Of a DNA stretch of 48,191 bases, positions 26,628-32,123 are shown in pieces. A program made the translations under genes and the position numbers. The stretch's first letter is position 1, and each line of letters begins with the position of its first letter. The notes under the pieces are model-generated. The model did not search any database, was not told the DNA's origin, and was given only the letters and a program-made list of their open reading frames with translations. Location of the stretch: contig DATNQI010000037.1 in the NCBI GenBank assembly GCA_036704125.1, forward strand, positions 1-48,191, in the 5' to 3' direction. The stretch comes from Pantanalinema sp. (GTDB lineage Bacteria > Cyanobacteriota > Sericytochromatia > S15B-MN24 > UBA4093).

Positions 26628-29600
26628 ATGCACATCGTCTCGGTCGAGCTGGAGAACATCAAGCGGTACACCCACGACCGCTTCGAGTTCATGCTGGGCA
26701 CCAACGCCATCTCCGGGCCCAACGGCGCGGGCAAGTCCACCATCCTCGAAGCCATCGGCTTCGCCCTCTTCGACAGCCTCCCCTACAAGAAGGAGGACTT
26801 CCTGCGCCGGGGCGCGACGACGGGCACCGTGCGGGTGACCTTCGAGTCCGGGGTGGACGAGCGCGAGTACACGGTCGTCCGCAACACCAAGTCCACCTAC
26901 TACGTCTACGACCCCGCGACCAAGACCCGCGTGGCCGAGCAGAAGACGGACGTGCTCGCCTGGCTGCGCGAGCACCTGGGGGTCGCGCCCGACACCGACC
27001 TGGACGAGTTCTTCCGCACCACCATCGGCGTGCCGCAGGGCACCTTCACCGCGGTCTTCATGGACACCGCCACGCGCCGCAAGGCCGTGTTCGACCGCAT
27101 CCTGAGGGTCGAGGAGTACCGCCAGTCCTCGGATGCCCTCAAGGAGACGCTGCAGCACTTCCAGGGCCGGATCAACGAGGCCGACAAGGAGCTTGCGGGC
27201 TACCAGGGACGCCTCCTGCGCATGCCGGACCTCGAGGTGCAGCAGGCCCAGCTCGAGACCGAGCAGCGCTCGACCGAGGAGCGCCTCTCGCGCGCCACCA
27301 AGGAGCTCGCCCTCTATCAGGGGCGCCTCGTCGAGGTGGACGCCCTGGAGAAGGCAATCGCCCAGGATCGGCGCGACCTCGAGACCCTCGGGACCAGGCG
27401 CGATTACGCCCGCAAGGAGCGCGACGCGGCCCAGGCGCGCGTCGGCGAGGCCGAGCGCGCCATGAGCGAGCGCAAGGCCCTCGAAGGCGATTACCGGGCG
27501 TATCAGGCCGCGGAGAAGGACCTCACCGCGCTTCAAGCCGATCTCAAGGCCCGTGACGCCCTCAGGTCCGAGCGCGCCGGGGTGCAGCGCAAGCTGGACG
27601 AGGCGACCTTCGCGCTGCAGACCCTCGCGTCGCGCTTGACGGCGCTCGAAAAGGACGCCGAGGCCCGCGAGGCCCTGCGGCCCCAGGTCGAGGCCCAGGC
27701 GAGGCACGAGGCGGCGCTCTCGGACCTCAAGGCCAAGCTCTTGGAACTCAAGGCCCTCGAAGAGCGCCTCGCGCGGACCCGCGCCGAGCATGCCACCTGG
27801 GCCGAGCGCCTGAGCAAGATCGAGGCCGAGCTCGGCGCCATCGACGCACTCGCCGAGGCGCCCCTTCGCGTCGCGACCCTGGAGGCCTCGCTCAAGGAGC
27901 AGGAAGCGTTGCTTGCGGCATTTCGCGAGGCCGAGTTGCAGCGCAAGGAGCGCGAGAGCCGCCGCAAGCTGCTCGAGGAGGAGGCCGCCAGGGAGCGCCG
28001 CGCCGTCACGGCCCACGCCGCGACCCTGGCCGAGAAGGAGCCGCTGCGCAAGATCGCTGCTCAGCTCGACGCCCTGACCGAGCAGGGGCAGGCCCTGCGC
28101 GATCGCCTCTCGTTGGTGGAGGCCGAGCTTGCGCGCGATCGCCAGGCTTCGACCCAGTTCCAGGCCGGCAACCTGTGCCCCATCCTCAACGTCGGCTGCC
28201 CCATCCTCGAAGGCCAGTCGCCCGAGGCTTACTACCAAGACGTCATCGCCCAGGGCGAGGCCAAGGCCAAGGCCCTGGGCGCGGAGATCCTGGACCTGCG
28301 CAGGCGCTGGAAAGAGGCGAGCGACGCGAGCAAGCAGGTCGCCACGCTCGACGGCGTGCGCTTGCAGCACGACGAGGCCAAGCTCGCGCTCGAAAAGCAC
28401 GAGGCGGCGCTCGCCGCTCTGGCCAAGGCGGACGCCGCCGTCGCGGGCGCTTCGGCCGAGGGCGAGGCGCTTTCGCGCGCCATCGCGACGGCCCGCGAGG
28501 CCTTGACCAAGGCCCAGGCCGAGGCGGGGCGCTACGCCCAGCGCGAGGGCCTCGCCACCCAGCGCGACGCCGTGGTCAAGGAGCAGGCCGATCGCCGCTC
28601 GGCCATCGAGGCCGACGAAGCGGCGGCCAAGGCCCACGGCGCGCTCGCCGAGCGTCTCGCTGCCGTCGAGCAGGAGCTTGTACAGCTGGGGGATCCCCGC
28701 TCGCGCGACCGGGCCCTGGAGCGCGCGATCGCCGAGCGCCCCCGGCTCGAGGCCGAGCGTTCCGCTCAGGCCACCGCGGCTCGGGAGCAGACCGCTGCGC
28801 TTTCGGCCCTGGACGAGCGCCTTTTGCCCTTCGCCGAACTCGACACGCGCCTGCTGCAAGCGGGCGATCGCAAGAAGGCGTCGGAGGCGGGTTACCAGCG
28901 TTACCTCGCGGTGGCCGGTGTCGCCGACGAGCTTGCGGCTCGCCATCAGGCCCACCGGGACGCGCTTTCGCGTCTCGAGGCGATCGAAGGTGAGCTTGCG
29001 GCCCTTGCTTCCACTTCGAGCGAGCGCAGTGCCGCCTACCAGGCCGAGGAGCACGCGAGCCTGCGCGAGCGGGTCGAGGGCCTCAAGGCCGAGGCGATCC
29101 GCTTCGAGCAGGCGGTGGGCTTTCTCGTGCAGCAGCTGGAGCGCACCCGAGCGGAGATGCGCGAGCTCTCCCGGGTGCAGGAGGAGATGAAGGAGGCGAT
29201 CGCCGCGCGCGAGCGCCTGGTGGCCGATGCGTCCTTCGTCGAGTTCGCCCGTGGCACCCTCAAGGAGGCGGGCCCCTTCATCACCGAGGCCTACCTCATG
29301 ACCATCTCGCTGGAGGCCGACCGCCTCTTCCGCGAGATCACGGGCCACCACCAGGTGCATCTGCGCTGGAGCAACGACTACGAGATCCTGCTCGAGGAGG
29401 AGGGACGCGATCGCCCCTTCAACAACCTCTCGGGCGGCGAGCAGATGGCCGCGGCCCTCTCGGTTCGCCTCGCCCTCCTCAAGGAGACCTCGAGCGTGGA
29501 CATGGCCTTCTTCGACGAGCCGACCACCAACATGGACGAGAACCGGCGCAGCAACCTCGCGCACCAGATCGGCGAGATCAGGACGTTCAAGCAGCTGTTC

Positions 29601-29666
29601 GTGATCAGCCACGACGACACCTTCGAGCAGTGGACGGATCACGTGGTCCGGGTGGCCGAGCGATAG
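26628..29666 (+). CDS. sbcC: exonuclease subunit SbcC (Rad50-like SMC ATPase), 1012 aa
   Basis: The ATPase head is split to the two ends: Walker A SGPNGAGKST (29-38), and at the C-terminus the signature NNLSGGEQMAAALSVRLAL, Walker B MAFFDEPTTNMD and the switch ISHDD. Between them are two long coiled coils (about 170-510 and 530-880). The hook between them has two Cys in CPILNVGC (C517 and C524, six residues apart) and lacks the canonical CxxC. SbcC tethers DNA and drives the SbcD nuclease. Its ATG follows repeat B, whose G-rich end serves as ribosome-binding site. Confidence 0.92.
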   Translation: MHIVSVELENIKRYTHDRFEFMLGTNAISGPNGAGKSTILEAIGFALFDSLPYKKEDFLRRGATTGTVRVTFESGVDEREYTVVRNTKSTYYVYDPATKTRVAEQKTDVLAWLREHLGVAPDTDLDEFFRTTIGVPQGTFTAVFMDTATRRKAVFDRILRVEEYRQSSDALKETLQHFQGRINEADKELAGYQGRLLRMPDLEVQQAQLETEQRSTEERLSRATKELALYQGRLVEVDALEKAIAQDRRDLETLGTRRDYARKERDAAQARVGEAERAMSERKALEGDYRAYQAAEKDLTALQADLKARDALRSERAGVQRKLDEATFALQTLASRLTALEKDAEAREALRPQVEAQARHEAALSDLKAKLLELKALEERLARTRAEHATWAERLSKIEAELGAIDALAEAPLRVATLEASLKEQEALLAAFREAELQRKERESRRKLLEEEAARERRAVTAHAATLAEKEPLRKIAAQLDALTEQGQALRDRLSLVEAELARDRQASTQFQAGNLCPILNVGCPILEGQSPEAYYQDVIAQGEAKAKALGAEILDLRRRWKEASDASKQVATLDGVRLQHDEAKLALEKHEAALAALAKADAAVAGASAEGEALSRAIATAREALTKAQAEAGRYAQREGLATQRDAVVKEQADRRSAIEADEAAAKAHGALAERLAAVEQELVQLGDPRSRDRALERAIAERPRLEAERSAQATAAREQTAALSALDERLLPFAELDTRLLQAGDRKKASEAGYQRYLAVAGVADELAARHQAHRDALSRLEAIEGELAALASTSSERSAAYQAEEHASLRERVEGLKAEAIRFEQAVGFLVQQLERTRAEMRELSRVQEEMKEAIAARERLVADASFVEFARGTLKEAGPFITEAYLMTISLEADRLFREITGHHQVHLRWSNDYEILLEEEGRDRPFNNLSGGEQMAAALSVRLALLKETSSVDMAFFDEPTTNMDENRRSNLAHQIGEIRTFKQLFVISHDDTFEQWTDHVVRVAER

Positions 29667-29700
29667 CACGCAACCGAGCCAAGTCCCACCTTTTCGGCGT

Positions 29701-29871
29701 GTGACCTTGCTCACCCCCTGAAAACCGTCGCTTCTTCGGAGGTGCGGGTCAGGGGCTGTTTTGGGCGGCGAAGAACGGGCAAGCGCAAAGCGCCCGCCGA
29801 CAGGGCCACCTGGGCGAAACGCACGTACGGGCCCCAGGGTGTCCCGTGTTAAAAAATGGGCATCGAAAGTT
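29701..29871 (+). ncRNA. conserved leader RNA, copy 1, candidate cis-regulatory structure
   Basis: This 171-nt block fills most of the 345-bp gap before the first lipoprotein gene. It starts with a hairpin GTGAC-CTTG-CTCAC and contains a 91-nt core (29781-29871) shared ungapped with copy 2 (69 of 91 identical by my count). The core includes GGCGAAACGCACGTACGGG and a CAC-GTAC-GGG / CCC-GTG stem, and ends CATCGAAAGTT. A second hairpin just before the ribosome-binding site (CGCCTC / GGGGCG, about 29967-29987) is also shared. No known riboswitch class was recognised. Confidence 0.5.
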
Positions 29872-30011
29872 CACCACTGGCCCACGAACTCACCTGAACC
29901 GATTCGCAGGATGGATTTCCTCTCAATGAACGAAGATTTCACGTCGTGAAGCGTGCCGGTGGTCTCGCCTCTGATCAATCGGGGCGAATGAGAAGGAAGG
30001 ATGGGAACGGT

Positions 30012-30536
30012 ATGCGCGTGAATCACCTCAACGGTCTTCTGCTCGGTCTCGCCCTCGTCACCGCCAGCGGTTGCAGCACCGCGCCCACCGCGGCCCCTGC
30101 CGCCCCGAACCCCGTGGTCCACCCGGTCCAGCAGCTCGAGCCCGCCGGCGCAGTGCCGGCGCAGGTCGCCCCCGCACCGCTGGCGGCTTCTCCCTGCAAC
30201 CCCTGCGACGGCGTCGGGGCCTACGGCGCCCCCTACGGTCCCTACGGAGGTGCCCCGTACTACCCCTACACGGGCATTCCCCTGCCCGGCTACGCCACCT
30301 TCTTCGACCCGTTCGCCGTCCCGGTCGTCGACAACATCTCGAGCAACGTCTCCCCCTCCAACGTCGTCCAGGACTCGAGCATCAGCATCACCGGCAACAA
30401 CAACACGGTGATCATCAAGCAGGGCGGCCGCGGCGGCGGGCGAATCGACGGCCTGGACGTGACCGTCGACGGCAACGGGAACACGGTCGAGGTCAAGCAG
30501 GGTCGCGATCGCAAGAATAACGACAAACCGGTCTAA
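30012..30536 (+). CDS. lipoprotein paralogue 1 with curlin-like repeats, 174 aa
   Basis: A lipoprotein signal ends TASGC (Cys about residue 21). A Pro/Ala-rich linker leads to a Cys-, Gly- and Tyr-rich region (NPCDGVGAYGAPYGPYGG and PYYPY, about 62-90), then FFDPF and a C-terminal beta region with two repeats of the type I-x-G-x-x-N-x-V-x3-Q-G (GNNNTVIIKQGG, GNGNTVEVKQG). N-x-V-x3-Q is close to the curlin repeat N-x-A-x3-Q, and DUF3060-type beta solenoids look similar. It is the first of three tandem paralogues. The start is set by AAGGAAGG about 11 bases upstream; the frame extends to 29946 without support. The function is unknown. Confidence 0.7.
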   Translation: MRVNHLNGLLLGLALVTASGCSTAPTAAPAAPNPVVHPVQQLEPAGAVPAQVAPAPLAASPCNPCDGVGAYGAPYGPYGGAPYYPYTGIPLPGYATFFDPFAVPVVDNISSNVSPSNVVQDSSISITGNNNTVIIKQGGRGGGRIDGLDVTVDGNGNTVEVKQGRDRKNNDKPV

Positions 30537-30554
30537 TCGGCGAATTTTTCTCGC

Positions 30555-30593
30555 GCGCAGGGGGCGGACTTGGTCCGCCCCCTGCGCTTTTTT
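30555..30593 (+). terminator. strong rho-independent terminator
   Basis: GCGCAGGGGGCGGAC, loop TTG and the exact complement form a 15-bp stem followed by TTTTTT. It separates paralogue 1 from the leader of paralogue 2, so the two are separate transcripts. Confidence 0.93.
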
Positions 30594-30646
30594 CATCGAG
30601 CGAGCAGGGGTCGAAGTAAGCGACCGAAATCCCTGCCATCGCAGCT

Positions 30647-30817
30647 GTGAGCTTGCTCACGCCGGGGAAACCCGTGCTTATCCGGAAAGACGGATGCCGG
30701 GCCGATTTCATCCCCCGAGATCGATCAAGCGTGAAGCGCCTGGTGACAGGCCCGCTTAGGCGAAACGCACGTATGGGTGATCTGCTCTCCCGTGATAAAA
30801 ATTGACCATCGAAAGTT
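30647..30817 (+). ncRNA. conserved leader RNA, copy 2, candidate cis-regulatory structure
   Basis: This 171-nt block, equal in length to copy 1, begins with a perfect GTGAG-CTTG-CTCAC hairpin. It shares the 91-nt core (30727-30817) with GGCGAAACGCACGTATGGG, a variable 11-nt loop, then CCCGTG, a run of A and CATCGAAAGTT. The distance to the start codon is 142 bases (141 in copy 1). A hairpin CGCCTCG / CGAGGCG precedes the Shine-Dalgarno. Together with the terminator before it, this accounts for the 422-bp gap between genes. Confidence 0.5.
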
Positions 30818-30958
30818 TGATGACCGGCTCAGTCGATCAAATGAATCCCGAGATTGAAGCGAAGTCCTCTTAACTCACCCGGATTTCCCGCCGAGAAACG
30901 TGCCGGTTATCTCGCCTCGGTTCGAGCGAGGCGAACGTGAAGGAAGGATGGGAACGGT

Positions 30959-31489
30959 ATGCGCATGAACCACTTCAACGGTCTTCTGCTTGGTCTCGCC
31001 CTCGTCGCCGCCAGCGGTTGCAGCACCGCGCCCACCGCGGCCCCTGCCAACCCGGCCCCGGTCCTGCCGGTCCAGCCCGCCGGCGGTCAGCCCGTGCAGC
31101 AGCTGGCGCCGGTGGACCCCTGCCCGCAGCCGGTCGCCCCCGCACCGCTGGCGGCCGATCCCTGCAACCCCTGCGACGGCATCGGAGGCTACGGCGCCCC
31201 CTACGGTCCCTACGGCGGCGCTCCGTACTATCCCTACGGGGCGGGCCTCAGCACCGTCTTCTTCGATCCCTTCGCCTTCAACTCGGTGGTCCTCGATACG
31301 GTCGTCGTCCAAGACGACGTGAGGCCCAACAACGTCATCCGCGACACGGACGTCACCATCACGGGCAACCGCAACCAGGTCGTCTTCAACCAGGGTGGGC
31401 ACGGCGGGAGCCGGATCGACAACCTGGGCGTCACGATCGACGGCAACAACAACTCGGTCAAGATCAAGCAGGGTGCTCGCCGCAAGTAA
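30959..31489 (+). CDS. lipoprotein paralogue 2 with curlin-like repeats, 176 aa
   Basis: It is closely related to paralogue 1: same signal (MRMNHFNGLLLGLALVAASGC), same NPCDGIGGYGAPYGPYGG core (about 74-91), FFDPF, and two C-terminal repeats (GNRNQVVFNQGG and GNNNSVKIKQG). An extra PCPQP-type segment lengthens the linker. AAGGAAGG precedes the ATG. The copy includes the same 310-bp upstream region as paralogue 1, so gene and control region duplicated together. A surface-exposed, possibly fibre- or matrix-related role is a guess. Confidence 0.7.
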   Translation: MRMNHFNGLLLGLALVAASGCSTAPTAAPANPAPVLPVQPAGGQPVQQLAPVDPCPQPVAPAPLAADPCNPCDGIGGYGAPYGPYGGAPYYPYGAGLSTVFFDPFAFNSVVLDTVVVQDDVRPNNVIRDTDVTITGNRNQVVFNQGGHGGSRIDNLGVTIDGNNNSVKIKQGARRK

Positions 31490-31541
31490 CCCCGGAGCCC
31501 GTTTTTTCGAGGCGTGCCTCCACGAGAGAAGGAAAGACTGA

Positions 31542-32123
31542 ATGCGAATGAACGCTTATCACGGTCTGGTGGTCGGCCTCACGGCCGCGATGGTCACGGT
31601 CGGCGGTTGCAGCACCGCGCCGAGCGCTCCGGCCGAGCCGGCTCGACCGGATCCGGCCCCGATCCTGCCGAACGGCGGCCAGCCGATGCAGCAGGTGGCT
31701 CCGCCCGTGTCGGATCCCTGCCCTCAGCCCCCCGTGGCGCAGACGACCGATCCCTGCCCGCAGCCGCTGCCCCCGGCGCCGCTCGCGACGAACCCCTGCA
31801 ACCCCTGCGACGGCATCGGCGGCTACGGTCCCTACGGCGCCCCCTACGGCCCCTACGGGTACGGCGGCTACCCCTTCTTCGCGAACGCCATCCCCTTCTT
31901 CTTCGACGATGTCGTCGTCTTCGACGACGACCACCGGCCGCACCGTCGTAACCGGGATCGCGACCACAACGGCCACGGGAACGGCGGCGGATCGAACCAC
32001 GGTGGCGGCTGGCAGGGCGGTGGTGGATCGAGCGGAGACGGCTGGCACGGCGGCGGCGATCGCCCGGGCCGCGGCGAGGGTCGCGGGAGCGGGCGAGGCG
32101 AAGGCCGCGGCGCTCGGCGCTAG
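31542..32123 (+). CDS. lipoprotein paralogue 3 with a Gly/His/Arg-rich tail, 193 aa
   Basis: The N-terminal half matches paralogues 1 and 2 (signal ending VGGC, two DPCPQP segments, NPCDGIGGYGPYG, then FFFDD). From about residue 125 the curlin-like repeats are replaced by a charged low-complexity tail: DDDHRPHRRNRDRDHNGHG, then GGG/WHGGG repeats, and a GRGEGRG end. Such tails may bind metal or nucleic acid, which is inference. It lacks the long leader and follows paralogue 2 after 52 bases, so the two are probably one transcript. GGAAAG precedes the ATG. Confidence 0.65.
   Translation: MRMNAYHGLVVGLTAAMVTVGGCSTAPSAPAEPARPDPAPILPNGGQPMQQVAPPVSDPCPQPPVAQTTDPCPQPLPPAPLATNPCNPCDGIGGYGPYGAPYGPYGYGGYPFFANAIPFFFDDVVVFDDDHRPHRRNRDRDHNGHGNGGGSNHGGGWQGGGGSSGDGWHGGGDRPGRGEGRGSGRGEGRGARR

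Follow-up and report, generated by a model that had tools for sequence, protein, structure and literature searches.

A duplicated upstream module of lipoprotein genes in Pantanalinema sp. is probably a promoter carrying an operator of the CRP type

Two consecutive lipoprotein genes in a Pantanalinema sp. genome are each preceded by a leader of the same length, and the question is whether these leaders form a structured RNA, as a first, sequence-only reading of the locus had proposed, or act as DNA. The window analysed here is the whole 48,191-nucleotide contig C37 of a 3.5 Mb genome. Within it, an SbcC-like gene (26628-29666) is followed downstream by three lipoprotein genes, arranged as follows.

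30012-30536, plus strand: lipoprotein 1 (lp1), 174 aa, with a weak DUF3060 match below the cut-off
30555-30587, plus strand: intrinsic terminator of lp1, a 15-bp stem followed by TTTTTT, separating two transcription units
30959-31489, plus strand: lipoprotein 2 (lp2), 176 aa, a tandem duplicate of lp1 with 112/165 aa identical
31542-32123, plus strand: lipoprotein 3 (lp3), 193 aa, with no copy of the leader

Because the terminator lies between lp1 and the second leader copy, a promoter is required within the 365-nt gap that holds copy 2. The 52-nt gap between lp2 and lp3 (31490-31541) contains neither a terminator-like site nor a leader copy, and lp3 is probably in one operon with lp2. The C-termini of lp1 (30354-30530) and lp2 (31325-31474) contain repeat units such as ITGNNNTVIIKQGG / VDGNGNTVEVKQG, which we take to be reminiscent of curlin-like repeats. 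Across the window, GCGATCGC, the HIP1 palindrome of cyanobacteria, is strongly over-represented, with 35 occurrences where base composition predicts 1.8; four further palindromes of 8 bp with that base composition occur 1, 8, 2 and 1 times.

The leader blocks, 171 nt each (29701-29871 and 30647-30817), are colinear with an offset of 946 bp and end at nearly equal distances from the start codons, the core being followed by 140 nt up to the ATG at 30012 and by 141 nt up to the ATG at 30959, as the sequence-only reading had described. Its ungapped core with a variable 11-nt loop was likewise recovered (29780-29872, 93 nt, 70/93 identical between copies 1 and 2); the loop differs between the two copies and its 5′-flanking GGCGAAACGCACGTA is invariant. 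The ungapped alignment extends from about 29695 to 29872, past which a single 1-nt indel shifts the offset to 947, and this continues through the start codon into the ORFs. A repeat search of the window shows one continuous tandem repeat, whose unit takes in the entire gene and some 320 nt of the sequence ahead of it. The equal length and spacing of the leaders therefore carry no extra information and need no functional explanation. The features of the two copies are:

29700-29715, plus strand: predicted CRP-type operator of copy 1, TGTGACCTTGCTCACC, a motif match with GTGA-N6-TCAC at 29701-29714
29716-29780, plus strand: stretch of copy 1 from operator to core, conserved in length and variable in sequence (37/65 identical to copy 2, 22/65 to a third copy described below)
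29812-29829, plus strand: invariant box of copy 1, GGGCGAAACGCACGTACG, a candidate activator site with its centre at about -41 relative to the predicted start
29826-29848, plus strand: TACGGG-N11-CCCGTG of copy 1, a hairpin (P4) if RNA, a variable promoter spacer if DNA
29847-29855, plus strand: extended -10-like element of copy 1, TGTTAAAAA, which would place the start near 29862
29965-29987, plus strand: hairpin TCGCCTC-N9-GGGGCGA of copy 1, 5′ of the ribosome-binding site
30646-30661, plus strand: predicted CRP-type operator of copy 2, TGTGAGCTTGCTCACG, a motif match with GTGA-N6-TCAC at 30647-30660
30758-30775, plus strand: invariant box of copy 2, AGGCGAAACGCACGTATG
30772-30794, plus strand: TATGGG-N11-CCCGTG of copy 2, P4 hairpin if RNA, variable spacer if DNA
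30793-30801, plus strand: extended -10-like element of copy 2, TGATAAAAA, which would place the start near 30808
30912-30934, plus strand: hairpin TCGCCTC-N9-GAGGCGA of copy 2, 5′ of the ribosome-binding site, with a U-G to U-A stem change

Overall identity between the two leaders is 61-68% (143/233 and 94/139), and fourfold-degenerate sites of the lp1 and lp2 ORFs are 70% identical (51/73), so most of the leader is conserved no better than near-neutral sites. Identity peaks at the GTGA-N6-TCAC palindrome (operator 14/16), the core (about 80%, with 7/15 in the loop) and the 40 nt directly ahead of the ATG (>90%); the 65 nt that follow the operator reach about 55%. The leader could thus be mostly a remnant of descent, neutral upstream sequence carried along with the gene, in which function is confined to the CRP site and to the final 40 nt, where the ribosome-binding site and the hairpin lie. 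The closeness of leader identity to that of the fourfold sites speaks for this explanation, which we nevertheless hold to be quite improbable in view of the third copy. A comparison of just these two copies does not separate selection on the core from descent.

A covariance model built from copies 1 and 2 and searched against the organism's own genome, the check proposed with the sequence-only reading, yielded one further match of note, a third, unlinked copy on the minus strand of contig C42 (18193-18298; 34 bits, E = 3.4e-5). It lies 115 nt ahead of a 380-aa lipoprotein (MRMSKLPRALAATAAIALSVGCTQAPT...) that has a different C-terminal region and an N-terminal linker resembling that of lp3 (SEPCPQPPLPL vs SDPCPQPPVAQ). 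The third copy aligns with the others without gaps over 183 nt, an offset scan counting 89 matches at offset 0 where the mean is 50, and is much more diverged, with 22-30/65 identical positions from palindrome to core and 3-4/15 in the loop. Since it is so strongly diverged, the parts that it retains are informative. All three copies share, at fixed spacing, GTGA-N6-TCAC, GGCGAAACGCACGTAYG and CGTGnTAnAAA; the third also keeps AGCG, an 18-nt box identical to that of copy 1 (the box is also given as GGCGAAACGCACGTACG) and the 3′ motif (CGTGTTACAAA vs CGTGTTAAAAA and CGTGATAAAAA). Conservation among the three is 18-20/21 in the box, 3-7/15 in the gap, 9-11/13 in the 3′ motif and 6-12/15 in the tail. 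Retention of the box and of CGTGnTAnAAA in so distant a copy requires selection, which argues against a mere remnant of descent. The leader module is therefore real, selectively retained, lineage-specific and regulatory, and the earlier proposal of a conserved, duplicated cis-regulatory block ahead of lipoprotein genes is borne out.

The lipoprotein of the third copy (L076, G000 C42) is one of a group of paralogues, several of which are encoded in G000, on contigs C13, C47 (about three in tandem) and C82, and in the genome of the same taxonomic family (G001 C14). The leader is absent from all of these other paralogues.

Beyond its own genome the module was not found. A DNA search of 59 relatives returned the own genome only, and the covariance model gave no homologue in the 18 genomes of the class or in 386 genomes of the phylum, where two matches of 22-24 bits (G188 and G224) lacked the box. 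In a collection of genome contigs the exact full core pattern had 0 matches, and the 18-nt box alone had 40 scattered ones, about the number expected by chance, none of which scored with the covariance model; 23 matches of a 15-mer in viral contigs were also taken as chance. Allowing up to 3 mismatches, counts of the box in the class genomes equalled those of a reversed control. Several individual matches were set aside: the best box match outside the genome (G006 C137, 1 mismatch) and its counterpart in G008 lie within open coding frames, a 17.7-bit match in the own genome (L077) is next to divergent gene starts and has no box, and the next own-genome match of a model of sequence without structure (C85, 19 bits) needs indels and covers fragments only. 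No homologue of lp1-lp3 was found in the class, where matches of lp1 and lp2 did not exceed low-complexity noise, and in the only genome of the same family, G001, no lipoprotein follows the SbcC homologue, other genes occupying that place. The class is represented by only 18 genomes, and the absence elsewhere is in part due to thin sampling of the lineage.

What, then, do the retained parts encode? At the upstream edge, the sequence-only reading had seen an RNA stem, a terminal hairpin with a CTTG loop. An RNA stem under selection is expected to covary rather than to keep constant half-sites. Here GTGA and TCAC are constant and the middle varies, which is the pattern of a CRP operator consensus and not of a covarying stem; judged by its motif, the supposed CTTG-loop stem is an operator of the CRP type. 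The palindromes of copies 1 and 2, TGTGACCTTGCTCAC and TGTGAGCTTGCTCAC, match TGTGA-N6-TCACA, with TGTGACCTTGCTCACC and TGTGAGCTTGCTCACG each agreeing at 9/10 consensus positions, and the palindrome of the third copy, CGTGATCCTCCTCACG, agrees at 8/10 and, just as in the other copies, is exactly 67 nt away from the core. This consensus, TGTGAN6TCACA, is that of CRP in both E. coli and cyanobacteria (PMC2633013). Genome-wide, TGTGA-N6-TCAC has 12 strand-matches at 10 places, against 1 for a reversed-pattern control, and a rough inspection of ORFs puts nearly all 10 places in intergenic regions or at gene starts. The genome encodes two full-length CRP/FNR relatives, L041 and L042 (PDB matches with E of about 1e-36 and 1e-39), whose recognition helices have the R-E-x3-R pattern (SSRETVTRAL in L041, with SRETVTR; TSRETFTRVL in L042, with SRETFTR).

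Two other sites of this type were observed in the genome. At L033 (1460-1516; G000 C62:8054), a promoter-like TTGACG-N17-TATGAT of canonical form is immediately followed by a CRP-type site, TGTGATTGAGGTCACA, a placement that suggests repression at L033 and, going by the motifs, the use of ordinary sigma-70 promoters by this genome. At L038 (G000 C79:20852), a full TGTGA-N6-TCACA palindrome lies between a minus-strand gene and another putative lipoprotein gene, 2.3 kb from a CRP-family gene.

A CRP site usually activates from positions of about -41.5, -61.5 or -71.5. None of the three copies has a -10-like hexamer 20-60 nt downstream of the palindrome, and from the palindrome to the predicted start, further downstream, it is some 154 nt. 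With no -10 at an activating distance, this is an operator-like site and not a standard class I/II CRP promoter. The predicted start comes from the 3′ end of the core, where all three copies have TGnTAnAAA at the same aligned position (TGTTAAAAA, TGATAAAAA and, in the third, TGTTACAAA). In each region it is the sole match to TGnTATAAT at 6/8 positions or better, against a background of 0.66 such matches per kb and strand. The hexamer TANNNT occurs nowhere in the three upstream regions, no copy has a -10-like hexamer upstream of the core, and no TTGACA-like -35 is present; an ECF-type promoter was rejected because its conserved GGAAC/CGTC pair is absent. If TGnTAnAAA is the -10, transcription would start near 29862 and 30808, the box would have its centre at about -41 and the spacer would be formed by the variable loop, so that activator site, spacer, -10 and start would account for the whole conservation profile. 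The only -10-like element thus predicts a start downstream of the core, a situation that the sequence-only reading had itself named as refuting its structured RNA. Counted against a promoter are the A, in place of T, at -7 in 3/3 copies, the missing -35 and an operator near -154, outside the usual CRP positions, together with the pair-preserving changes in P2/P3 and P4 and a consensus fold with p of about 0.007-0.08, described below.

The inverted repeat TACGnn-N11-nnCGTG might instead serve a second regulator, a dimeric DNA-binding protein, as an operator overlapping the promoter. Its 11-nt spacing and dyad are fixed in 3/3 copies, and it would lie between the predicted -36 and -14; however, the inner two half-site positions vary between copies, operators rarely allow changes there, and the box has no further instance in the genome beyond the leader copies. 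We regard a second operator as highly improbable.

We also weighed a lineage-specific cis-regulatory RNA, in which the transcript would begin downstream of the CRP site but ahead of the core, and in which the folded core would control lipoprotein expression. Its stems would be P1 (GCG/CGC), P2/P3 (CGCCY-GNN-GACAG-NNC-N5-RGGCG) and P4 (UAYGNN-N11-NNCGUG). Single copies fold no more stably than shuffles (z -0.45 and -1.57). The two-copy consensus fold of the core, compared with simulated divergence, has z -2.3 (p 0.0125), and coding duplicates of the same pair, as a control, have z of about 0. With three copies and column shuffles, z is -3.0 to -3.3 and p 0.004-0.008; over the three-copy tests, 29779-29856 has z -2.5 to -3.3 and p 0.004-0.007. 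Under a dinucleotide-preserving null, p rises from 0.007 for 29779-29856 to 0.077 when the full core (29779-29872) is taken, and it is 0.027-0.028 for the hairpin parts; the structure was derived from the same sequences and the windows were picked by eye after the fold was seen, and we read the consensus-fold evidence for an RNA as borderline and suggestive only.

In the unfitted three-copy alignment, 94% of cells are paired and 7/18 pairs are changed on both sides. P1 is invariant and P4 is intact in all three copies, whereas the third copy breaks P2/P3 at three cells. Pair-preserving changes include C-G to U-A in P2, C-G to G-C in P3, and G-C to C-G and G-C to U-G in P4, and some keep only G-U pairs, which fits an RNA better than a DNA palindrome. 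Against this, the consensus structure is not the minimum-energy fold in copy 1 or the third copy, and the core lacks an upstream -10-like element, an Rfam match and a homologue in any other genome searched. In cmscan searches of Rfam, a tRNA was the only match in the window at the gathering score, with nothing in the core, and matches at E up to 10 were at chance level and outside it; the earlier statement that no known riboswitch class is recognisable was thus correct. A loop-tail pseudoknot was discarded, its pairing place differing in each copy, as was an upstream ORF, the short candidates differing between copies. The earlier idea of a structured RNA thus keeps some pair-preserving changes in its favour, while single folds are ordinary, consensus folds borderline and the other genomes searched devoid of the element. 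Altogether, we consider a cis-regulatory RNA unlikely, and rather unlikely its specific form as a new lineage-restricted, CRP-controlled RNA with two stem-loops around the invariant GGCGAAACGCACGUA strand that coordinates several lipoprotein genes.

We therefore favour, as probable, a regulatory module that acts as DNA and has been duplicated: a promoter region from which the lipoprotein genes are expressed and whose upstream edge bears a CRP-type operator. A CRP/FNR-family protein would bind the GTGA-N6-TCAC palindrome, a second activator would bind the invariant box centred near -41, and RNA polymerase would use the extended -10-like TGnTAnAAA. The "stem with a variable loop" would then be a promoter spacer, mostly untranscribed, and the mRNA would begin with an ordinary 5′ UTR some 150 nt long. 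The predicted 150-nt UTRs below the core have unremarkable folds (z 1.30, 0.38 and -1.29 in the three copies). A 7-bp hairpin, TCGCCTC-N9-GRGGCGA, does exist near the ribosome-binding site, as had been proposed, but it lies just upstream of the Shine-Dalgarno sequence and does not cover it.

A tempting RNA-leader pattern can thus come from the tandem duplication of a promoter. The promoter reading makes a CRP-type regulon that includes several lipoproteins testable in a poorly studied sister lineage of cyanobacteria; were the RNA reading true, the core would represent a new small RNA family, so far found in this genome only.

Compared with known systems, the leader shares with structured 5′ leaders of the riboswitch type in Rfam its position, a fixed-length hairpin with a variable loop and a highly conserved box; it differs in having no family match, presence in one genome only and borderline covariation. 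With the extended -10 sigma-70 promoter (TGnTATAAT) it shares TG-n-TA-n-A-A, which all three copies carry at one aligned position, but it has A at -7 and no -35 consensus, and its start is a predicted one. With the CRP/SyCRP1-type promoters of cyanobacteria it shares GTGA-N6-TCAC, CRP proteins with an RE...R helix and a location upstream of protein genes. In most of the known cyanobacterial promoters that CRP activates, TAN3T follows the CRP site after about 22 bp (PMC2633013), whereas here TAN3T after the site is absent and the sole -10-like element lies about 135 bp downstream; the cyanobacteria studied there belong to another class than this genome.
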